Assembly (NCBI GenBank): GCA_030950585.1
Contig: JAUZRG010000068.1
Span: 1-64,000, forward strand
Origin: Mariprofundaceae bacterium
GTDB taxonomy: Bacteria; Pseudomonadota; Zetaproteobacteria; Mariprofundales; Mariprofundaceae
DNA length: 64,000 nucleotides
Direction: 5' to 3'
Positions 47,698 to 51,136 of this stretch are shown piece by piece (the first letter of the stretch is position 1; each line of letters starts with the position of its first letter). The position numbers and the translations under genes are program-made. Under the pieces are notes generated by a model. That model ran no database searches. It saw only the letters and a list, made by a program, of their open reading frames with translations, and was not told the origin of the DNA.

Positions 47698-47865
47698 CTA
47701 GAAGGCTGTCCGATAATGAAGATCGTAGCGAGGGAAAGTGAGATTGAGTTGGATTTTCGCTCCATTTGAGGCGAATAGCAGGGACTATTTAACGATAATA
47801 GGGTGGAAATACGGCCAATATCCGCTTTTACGCAGTAGGTTTGTCATTATCGGACAGCCTCCTAG
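47698..47865. mobile_element. 160-bp miniature element of IS5 type with CTAG duplication
   Basis: The element at 47702-47861 ends in inverted repeats whose inner 17 bp are identical (AGGCTGTCCGATAATGA at 47703-47719 and its complement at 47844-47860), with one outermost mismatch. CTAG is found immediately outside on both sides (47698-47701 and 47862-47865), a 4-bp target duplication of the YTAR type used by IS5-group elements. No coding capacity. It lies between thiO and the lytic transglycosylase gene and may carry part of that gene's promoter. Confidence 0.8.
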
Positions 47866-47899
47866 GTTTATGGTGAGCTTTACAAAGGAGTTGATACAC

Positions 47900-48558: not shown

Positions 48559-49149
48559 TTAGCGTAAGCTGAGAATGGCAATTGAAGCATTTGCGCCTGC
48601 ATGTAGACCCACAGCCACCCAGATGTTTTTGCTTTGTTCGTAAGCAAGTGCAAAAATAAGCCCGCCAATGAATTGGGGGGATAACCATGTCCCGTGCATG
48701 AGTGCAAATAAACTGGCACTTAAAAAGATAGCCATAGCTGTTGGCATGACTGTTTGTAAAAAGCGATAAAGCAAAGCGCGAAAAAACAATTCTTCAAAGA
48801 TTGGTCCGACAAGGATGAACAGGCTTAAGCCAAGTATGCCTTGAGCAAAAAATGGCAGTTCGTTGCTAAGCTTGGGCCATAATAACACACAACCAAGTCC
48901 TATCACCCCGCATATGAAGGCATATGTGATAAACACGGACAAAGCTTTTTTTTGTGGTAATTCTAAACCAAACCATTGCAACTGACGGCAGTGATAAAGC
49001 CAAAAAAAAATGCATACTGATTGCGCACAACGTAACCACAGTAGGTTGTTTCTTTGCTGAACATCCATCAAAAACTCTAGGCTTAAAACCATAAAAACGG
49101 CAATGATAAACACATGACTTCTTGGTGTTGGCGTTGGCTGATCTTTCAT
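48559..49149 (-). CDS. CPBP glutamic intramembrane protease (possible sorting protease)
   Basis: A 196-residue polytopic membrane protein with about six hydrophobic segments. The three motifs of the CPBP/ABI (Rce1-like) family are intact: Glu119-Glu120 with Arg124 in FEELFFRALLY, His152 in FALMHG and His183 in GLHAGAN. Short single-domain CPBP proteins of this size include the myxosortase and MrtJ groups, which process C-terminal sorting signals. Its gene is divergent from, and only 175 bp away from, a secreted metalloprotease gene whose product ends in just such a signal, so they are likely enzyme and substrate (inference). The alternative is a CAAX-like immunity protease without a dedicated partner. 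Confidence 0.85.
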   Translation of the reverse strand: MKDQPTPTPRSHVFIIAVFMVLSLEFLMDVQQRNNLLWLRCAQSVCIFFWLYHCRQLQWFGLELPQKKALSVFITYAFICGVIGLGCVLLWPKLSNELPFFAQGILGLSLFILVGPIFEELFFRALLYRFLQTVMPTAMAIFLSASLFALMHGTWLSPQFIGGLIFALAYEQSKNIWVAVGLHAGANASIAILSLR

Positions 49150-49324
49150 GAATCTTGATGCTATCCTTTTTTAATCGAGATGTTGCGTTTCATGTGATTC
49201 AGAGCACTTAGAGTGCTTATTTTTTATAAAATTGTGCGGTGAATCACTTGCTATTAAAATGAATAACCCTACATTTCTTAACCATATTCACTGGGGAGTG
49301 AAATAAAGAATATGGATTATAATA

Positions 49325-51136
49325 ATGATGATAACGATCAAGGTTGCCTTACGTCAGACAAGTAAAGTATTATTAACAGCTGCTATTTTATGCAGCCCTC
49401 TACAGCTAACACATGCTGTGGAGCAAAACACTGAAACGAAAATAAGCCGTTTTTTCGAGCATATAGAAAGCTCGAAAGAGCAGCATGATCATACGAAGTT
49501 TCACTCAACACACAAAGGCACAAAACATCGATGTGATGTGACTGCGATGAGTATCAAGGCGCGTATGCATTGGCAGCGAGTGAGTCCAGGGACGCAATCT
49601 AGCTTAACATCGTGGGTGACACGTCCGACTTCTGGACTTGGTTCGGGTGCTTATAAAAATACGGCATCGATGTATGATAGCACGCATTTTCGTATTCATT
49701 ATATCAATAAAACCTTGTTTCCAAATGATGAGGATGCAGCACTGTTTATGGTGGTGAAAAATATTAGTGCGTCTTTTGAAAAAGCATGGGAGACCACGCA
49801 CACCACATTAGGTTATGATGTACCGCCTTCTGATGCTGCTTTGATCAGCAATGGCGGTAATGGGCTTTATGATGTGTATTTGAAGAACCTAGGGCCACTT
49901 GGTTTATTGGGCTATACCACCAGTGATCATTTGGGTACCAGTGATCCAACACGTCCAAACGGAACTTATAGCTATATTATGATGGATAATGATTTTTCAT
50001 ATGCAGAGTATGGTTATCTTGACCCAACGATTTTACTTCAAGTGACTGCTGCACATGAGTACTTTCATGCTGTGCAATTTGGTTATGATCCTAGTGAGCA
50101 AGTGGCATTAGCAGAACAGTCTTCGACATGGATGGAAGATAAAGTTTATCCGAACCTACACGATAACTTTAACTATATTGGTGAAGTTTATGTGGATGGC
50201 AATGGCAATGGTCAATTTGATGCGATGGAATCATTTACAGATCGTAACTTAGATGGCCAGCGCAATGGCGGTAGTCAAAACACACCTGAATTTTCTCTGG
50301 ATGCCTTTGATCCTGTTGGCGATATTCAATATGGTCGTTTTCTTTGGGCACGTTACCTGACCGAAAGGTTTGGCGATCAAATTTTATTGGATATTTGGAA
50401 CCAGGCTGCATTGGTCGCAGGTGATAATAGTTTTGCAGCCACTCAAAATGCCTTGCTTGCGCGTGCATCCTCACTTCAGCAAGCTTATCAAGATTATGCT
50501 GTTTGGGCTTATAGGGTAGAGAACTTTTTATATGGTGTTAACTACCCACGTGTATGGGTGGAAAAAACATTTTTATCTTCGATCGTCAATGTGAGTTCCA
50601 GTACTTTGCCTTCGTTGCAACGTACACAAGCCTTACAAAGTCATTTATCGAGTTTGTATATTCAGGTTTATCAACCAGCAGGTGATTATTTATTTGTTGC
50701 TTCAGGTGGCCAATCTGGCTTAAGTGCGGTGACGGAAGATAGTGCTGGGGTGATTCGGGTGCAAGATGTACCCATCACAGCCAATCAAGGGACTTGGGTC
50801 ACACCAGTAAACTGTGTGCGTGTTGTTTTTGTGATTTCAAATGTCAGTGATATCAATGATGATATGGTTTGGGCATTAAATAGTAGTCAACGTGGTACTG
50901 CGGCTGTGGCAACATTGAGTACGAAAAATGTGACTGTGGTTGCTGCTCCTGCGGTGCCCATAGCAGTGCCAACCGTTGCCAACACGGTGGCTGCAACGCA
51001 ACAAGATATTGCAGCAGCAAAGAAAAGTGCAGGTTGTTTATTGCCTGACAAAACATCTTCTTGGCCTGTAAGCTATGTTGTTTTACTTCTCATGATGGGT
51101 TTAGTGGCATTTTATCGCCACTTTAAATTCAAATAA
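49325..51136 (+). CDS. Secreted metalloprotease, MXAN_6640-like, with C-terminal sorting signal
   Basis: A 603-residue exported protein. Signal peptide (VLLTAAILCSPLQLTHA), then a zinc-protease domain with HExxH (His244-Glu245-Tyr-Phe-His248 in AAHEYFHAVQF) and a nearby acidic STWMEDKVYPNL. An Asp/Asn-rich stretch follows (DGNGNGQFDAMESFTDRN), which may bind calcium. The C-terminus has an Ala/Val/Pro spacer, then Cys571 in SAGCLLPD, a hydrophobic span (VVLLLMMGLVAFY) and a basic tail (RHFKFK), a tripartite anchor like JDVT-CTERM or MYXO-CTERM proteins. The adjacent intramembrane protease gene supports processing at this tail. Architecture resembles the MXAN_6640 family, recalled from memory and not searched. 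Confidence 0.8.
   Translation: MMITIKVALRQTSKVLLTAAILCSPLQLTHAVEQNTETKISRFFEHIESSKEQHDHTKFHSTHKGTKHRCDVTAMSIKARMHWQRVSPGTQSSLTSWVTRPTSGLGSGAYKNTASMYDSTHFRIHYINKTLFPNDEDAALFMVVKNISASFEKAWETTHTTLGYDVPPSDAALISNGGNGLYDVYLKNLGPLGLLGYTTSDHLGTSDPTRPNGTYSYIMMDNDFSYAEYGYLDPTILLQVTAAHEYFHAVQFGYDPSEQVALAEQSSTWMEDKVYPNLHDNFNYIGEVYVDGNGNGQFDAMESFTDRNLDGQRNGGSQNTPEFSLDAFDPVGDIQYGRFLWARYLTERFGDQILLDIWNQAALVAGDNSFAATQNALLARASSLQQAYQDYAVWAYRVENFLYGVNYPRVWVEKTFLSSIVNVSSSTLPSLQRTQALQSHLSSLYIQVYQPAGDYLFVASGGQSGLSAVTEDSAGVIRVQDVPITANQGTWVTPVNCVRVVFVISNVSDINDDMVWALNSSQRGTAAVATLSTKNVTVVAAPAVPIAVPTVANTVAATQQDIAAAKKSAGCLLPDKTSSWPVSYVVLLLMMGLVAFYRHFKFK

Follow-up and report, generated by a model that had tools for sequence, protein, structure and literature searches.

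The window, that is, the whole stretch of 64,000 nucleotides that was analysed (Mariprofundaceae bacterium, contig JAUZRG010000068.1, positions 1 to 64,000), contains a divergent gene pair whose ORFs, strands, lengths, layout and 175-bp gap were all as an earlier sequence-only reading had given them. The minus-strand gene (48559..49149) encodes a CPBP (Rce1-like) glutamic intramembrane protease of 196 amino acids, the proposed tail-processing enzyme, and the plus-strand gene (49325..51136) encodes a secreted putative metalloprotease of the MXAN_6640 family with 603 amino acids, the proposed substrate. The CPBP protein scored 67.4 bits on PF02517 (cut-off 22.4 bits) and contains the EExxxR and HxxxN motifs, which places it in this family. 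Its motifs had been described as intact, and the alignment agreed: E119-E120-xxx-R124 and H183-xxx-N187 were invariant in 19 family members, and H152 sits within a conserved HG segment. In the intergenic region (49150..49324), promoter-like matches occurred at about chance level, and a single terminator-like hairpin was seen at 49202-49218.

The metalloprotease scored 198.7 bits on NF045524 (MXAN_6640_HExxH, cut-off 140 bits), a family whose name comes from an M. xanthus gene, and it was therefore assigned to this family together with its HExxH motif. The putative signal peptide, as read from the sequence, covers residues 1-31 (MMITIKVALRQTSKVLLTAAILCSPLQLTHA, 49325..49417, plus strand), and the N-termini of the homologues were likewise signal-peptide-like. 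The zinc-site motif HEYFH (H244-E-Y-F-H248, 50054..50068, plus strand) was invariant in alignments A1 and A7, and the description of the protein as a secreted HExxH metalloprotease was borne out. Its tail reads SAGC571 followed by LLPDKTSSWPVSYVVLLLMMGLVAFYRHFKFK and can be divided, all on the plus strand, into the signature segment A-G-C571-L-L-P (51029..51046), a hydrophobic helix V582-Y597 found by hydropathy scan (51068..51115) and the basic C-terminal tip RHFKFK, read from the sequence (51116..51133).

This metalloprotease was present in 13 of the 74 genomes of the family, namely the window's own and 12 of the sister genus g8. Every one of the 13 family members whose C-terminus could be read has Cys571, and all 13 tails run from a Gly/Ser-rich stretch through C-[LIVM]-[ST or L] to a hydrophobic helix and usually to basic residues, which means that the tail of Cys, helix and basic tip is real and not a product of chance. 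In an alignment of 11 near-full-length homologues, which share about 37% identity with the protein of the window, no residue after L531 other than Cys571 was invariant, so this residue is under strong constraint while the surrounding tail drifts. The Cys-x-x-Pro motif, which had been offered as the signature, is peculiar to the window's protein; the proline is not conserved among the relatives, whose motif is [G/S/A]-[G/S/A]-C-[LIVM]-[S/T], and we rejected it as the tail signature. Homologues without the Cys tail, which would have counted against a sorting signal, were not seen inside the family. The homologue in genome G041 stops at NGGCLIHLLGGF, and no reading frame there gives a helix, so it was left out of the support. 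A related-locus search of the genome contigs gave one distant Ignavibacteria homologue and nothing else. This protein (L003, 5983-7623) lacks the Cys tail and its end resembles, by eye, a type IX secretion signal, so that the metalloprotease looks as if it were differently anchored in different lineages. Sequence searches of the PDB with profiles of the CPBP protein and the metalloprotease gave nothing useful.

Then, a first tail profile built from the 13 metalloprotease tails was searched through the 74 family genomes, and the new proteins came almost only from g8. These g8 proteins have a signal-peptide-like start, a tail of the form [G/S]n-G-C-[LIVM]-[ST]-x(3-6)-helix-RRK and unrelated bodies, including single-CxxCH tandem families, GH16 beta-glucanase, RCC1 repeats, an RHS/Ig-like protein, a subtilase, choice-of-anchor-U and others; in three proteins the Cys tail comes after a choice-of-anchor-U domain. 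An enlarged profile was searched through 47 genomes at a threshold of E<=1e-3. All 16 g8 genomes gave tails (about 2-8 each), G265 gave one and the window's genome gave the metalloprotease alone, with zero tails in the other 29 of the 47. The layout of an invariant Cys followed by a transmembrane helix and a basic end was thus found on secreted proteins as a class, and one enzyme with one target, as the sequence-only reading had it, failed as a general rule, since a g8 genome encodes about 2-8 proteins with the tail, whose domains are unrelated. On the JDVT-CTERM model (NF033191, cut-off 27 bits), the g8 haem-type tails scored 22-24 bits and the G265 tail scored 33-37 bits, over the cut-off, and on MYXO-CTERM (TIGR03901, cut-off 20 bits) the best relative's tail reached 15.4 bits.

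In g8, secreted single-CxxCH proteins occur in tandem, two to four to a cluster and with the Cys tail on nearly all of them, at L121 8143-10085, L122 1922-4085, L127 7525-9327 and L130 15892-16876; these are possible surface haem proteins. A subtilase with a pre-peptidase domain (L138, 7116-9260) ends with GGSGGPC-LSPL-helix-RRRK, and its genome, G017, has the CPBP protein and no metalloprotease.

The window's own tail stands apart from these profiles. When the tail profiles were built without it, it scored next to nothing (from 0.2 bits or less up to 1.1 bits), so what links it to the g8 tails is its position at the end of a homologous protein and not the motif. For the same reason, any further tails in the window's genome that diverge in this way would escape the profile, and the search of this genome with profile A5, in which the window tail was found only as a member of the profile, supports a single target only weakly. 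The window tail had no match to JDVT-CTERM at E<=10, whether the whole protein or the isolated tail was used, and no match to MYXO-CTERM. An architecture scan was also made for a signal-peptide-like start with Cys, helix and basic end and no other long hydrophobic stretch. Over 603 kb (about 24%) of the window's genome, the window included, the sole Cys-tailed protein was the metalloprotease, and no other such tail was found among the ORFs of the window, in agreement with the first reading.

The CPBP protein belongs to a clade whose members scored 190-314 bits on their own profile, against at most 43 bits for the other CPBPs of these genomes. This clade was found in 18 of the 74 family genomes, namely the window's, 13 of g8, 3 of g9 and G265 (g3; 8% contamination), and also in G038 and G040, which represent another family of the same order. 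The clade's gene is the sole CPBP gene of G265 and of most g8 genomes, among them G007 with a listed completeness of 100%. The window's genome also encodes a second CPBP-type protein, a short one (L036, G000:C114, 1190-1633), of another CPBP group, which was found in several related genomes. On MrtJ (NF033192) the window's CPBP protein scored 41.5 bits against a cut-off of 75 bits and its orthologues 38.7-46 bits, while unrelated CPBPs scored 46.6-47.2 bits; by these scores unrelated CPBPs are at least as close to MrtJ. It scored 19.4 bits on Mrt_core (NF040914, cut-off 100 bits) and 27.5 bits on MrtS (cut-off 130 bits), and MrtX and MrtC gave no match. Membership in an unrelated CPBP clade had been named in advance as an argument against a sorting role, and this is largely what we found, since the protein lies below the curated cut-offs for MrtJ and Mrt_core and unrelated CPBPs score equally on MrtJ. 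The structure predicted for the CPBP protein alone had a mean pLDDT of 56 and a pTM of 0.33, and no conclusion was drawn from this model.

The distribution of the tails was compared with that of the CPBP clade in 44 family genomes, and the clade was present in 15 of the 18 tail-bearing genomes vs 3 of the 26 tail-less ones (Fisher p 3.6e-6, a value that ignores kinship, in a co-occurrence dominated by the one genus g8). The three tail-bearing genomes without the CPBP protein were 56-88% complete. Among 20 fully tested family genomes, tails were found exactly where the CPBP protein and the type II secretin GspD were both present (8/8), and GspD was over its cut-off in 8/8 tail-bearing genomes tested, so the type II secretion system (T2SS) accompanies the tails. 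Thus, phylogenetic co-occurrence of the tails turned out to be strong for the CPBP clade and likewise for the T2SS secretin, with G038 and G040 as exceptions at the level of the order.

Five CPBP-bearing genomes (G018, G033, G076, G038 and G040) had no detectable tails, so the CPBP protein may have another role. In the g9 genomes G018, G033 and G076 (L029, L031 and L200), the gene lies between priA and uvrA, and no GspD was found over the cut-off; in G038, the CPBP protein and GspD were present and no tail was detected, which breaks the rule at the order level. The tail could then be a real Cys-type signal while the adjacent CPBP protein has a different job, such as maturing peptides or toxins or modifying lipoproteins, and the co-occurrence would come from shared ancestry. 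The retention of the gene in g9 and f3 genomes where no tails were detected, its housekeeping context (priA-uvrA) in tail-less genomes and the position of the protein outside the curated Mrt families all fit such an explanation. But this protein is the sole CPBP in most tail-bearing genomes, the tails coincide exactly with CPBP and GspD in the 20 tested genomes, and of the tail-bearing genomes tested none has an exosortase and only the window's own has a rhombosortase. We therefore regard a different job for the CPBP protein as unlikely.

By the same absences, exosortase was rejected as the processor of the tails, and rhombosortase, which was absent from the tail-bearing g8 genomes tested and from G265, was rejected as a general one. 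The rhombosortase of the window's genome lies on contig C210 (L196, G000:C210, 1587-2183; TIGR03902 93.1 bits, over the cut-off), directly downstream of a rhombotarget lipoprotein (708-1580; TIGR04179 318.6 bits), and the two form a second dedicated sorting enzyme-target pair in this genome. It might be supposed that this enzyme also handles the window's tail and that the metalloprotease is a GlyGly-CTERM-like substrate, all the more as the window tail is divergent and has only the general tripartite shape in common with the others. However, this rhombosortase follows directly after a target of its own, the metalloprotease has an invariant Cys and no Gly-Gly run, and its Cys-tailed homologues occur in genomes without rhombosortase. 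The tail accordingly does not belong to the GlyGly-CTERM class, and we give hardly any credence to this explanation.

A further explanation is that the tail is a permanent, uncleaved C-terminal membrane anchor with a palmitoylated or structural Cys, and such an anchor would equally show a helix and a basic tip. Against this, proteins with unrelated domains share the tripartite layout and its invariant Cys, in many cases preceded by a choice-of-anchor domain or a linker rich in Gly and Ser, as is typical for sorting signals that are cleaved. The tails were also present only together with CPBP and T2SS, and an uncleaved anchor is very improbable in our judgement.

The CPBP and metalloprotease genes adjoin in the window's genome only. 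In g8, the CPBP gene is found among ftsE/ftsX/hslV-type genes and DHC-type cytochrome genes and, in the regions read, adjoins no gene for a tail-bearing protein; in g9 and G265 it is flanked by priA and uvrA. A conserved gene pair was thus rejected, and the lack of conservation, which the sequence-only reading had itself listed as counting against its proposal, has to be accepted for the relatives. The chance that two given genes adjoin among about 2,400 is roughly 1/1,000, so the adjacency in the window is suggestive, but it is one case seen in one genome.

Taking these results together, we consider it fairly likely that the CPBP protease and the metalloprotease are the enzyme and substrate of a Cys-type sorting system, CPBP-processed, T2SS-dependent and similar to JDVT-CTERM and MYXO-CTERM. 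From the sequences, a link between this enzyme and the tail of its neighbour is probable, and the window tail would be read by the neighbouring CPBP protein. The metalloprotease would cross the inner membrane by means of its N-terminal signal and stay held in this membrane by its C-terminal helix until the CPBP protease cleaves the tail at or near Cys571; lipidation of the Cys and a surface location of the metalloprotease would follow. The original interpretation therefore stands as far as the Cys-type tripartite tail, the CPBP protein as its likely processor and a variant of JDVT-CTERM or MYXO-CTERM are concerned, and falls as far as a dedicated system of one enzyme and one target was meant generally. 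In the window's genome the system may have one target, while one CPBP protein serves several substrates in the relatives, and the dedicated pair would be the local form of a system with many targets per enzyme in the relatives. The feature is real and coherent. Since many proteins of the relatives end in tails of this type, it looks like a known surface-sorting system in a form particular to the lineage. A more far-reaching version, which we put forward only tentatively, is that this is a separate CPBP sorting clade beyond the curated myxosortases, which serves a Cys-tail class peculiar to the lineage, pins families of single-CxxCH haem-type proteins and hydrolases to the outside of g8 cells and so may influence extracellular electron exchange or the degradation of material outside the cells; in the window's genome the system would have been reduced to one enzyme with one target, or taken up in that form.

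In the MYXO-CTERM system, it was shown experimentally that the CPBP protease MrtX cleaves the tails in a Cys-dependent manner and that the proteins reach the surface through the T2SS, while lipidation of the Cys is a proposal and the acyltransferase is not yet identified (PMC11980579). The system described here shares with it the many substrates per CPBP protein, the invariant Cys, the transmembrane helix, the basic tail, the T2SS dependence (PMC11980579) and also an MXAN_6640-type metalloprotease, but the tails reach at most 15.4 of 20 bits, the CPBP protein 19.4 of 100 bits on Mrt_core, and the lineage is not Myxococcota. Two-gene MrtJ/JDVT-CTERM enzyme-target pairs were described in beta- and gammaproteobacteria (PMC11980579), and the window's gene pair resembles these (NF033191/NF033192) in its single CPBP protein, the invariant Cys before the helix, the basic end and the two-gene arrangement; it differs in the score on MrtJ (41.5 of 75 bits) and in the window tail without a JDVT-CTERM match, and the relatives differ in that a genome has several substrates and the genes are not paired. 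GlyGly-CTERM/rhombosortase systems, of which one such pair occurs elsewhere in the window's genome, also have a tripartite tail and T2SS-linked surface anchoring, but their enzyme is a serine rhomboid and their signature is Gly-rich and Cys-free.

If this reading is true, the myxosortase mechanism would reach beyond the curated models to a further CPBP clade and another bacterial lineage, and secreted proteins that are otherwise unannotated, the haem-type ones included, would gain a likely surface localisation. The rule that tails occur with CPBP and T2SS is a clean, testable pattern, and the CPBP-bearing genomes without tails offer a contrast case for what decides the choice of substrate. The missing Cys acyltransferase of such systems could be sought by profiling against these genomes.

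Near the locus, at 47698-47866 of the window, we also observed a repeat of 168-169 bp with terminal inverted repeats (CTAGGAGGCTGTCCGA...TCGGACAGCCTCCTAG). About 0.6 Mb sampled from the same genome contained at least 11 more copies, 93-98% identical (L221, L255, L223, L253, L213, L242, L227, L036, L202, L208 and L224), often at contig ends, and an Rfam search of the repeat gave no match. It is a MITE-like element and may account for the fragmented assembly. The repeat covers the called 5' end of the ORF at 47738, so the true start of this ORF probably lies further in.
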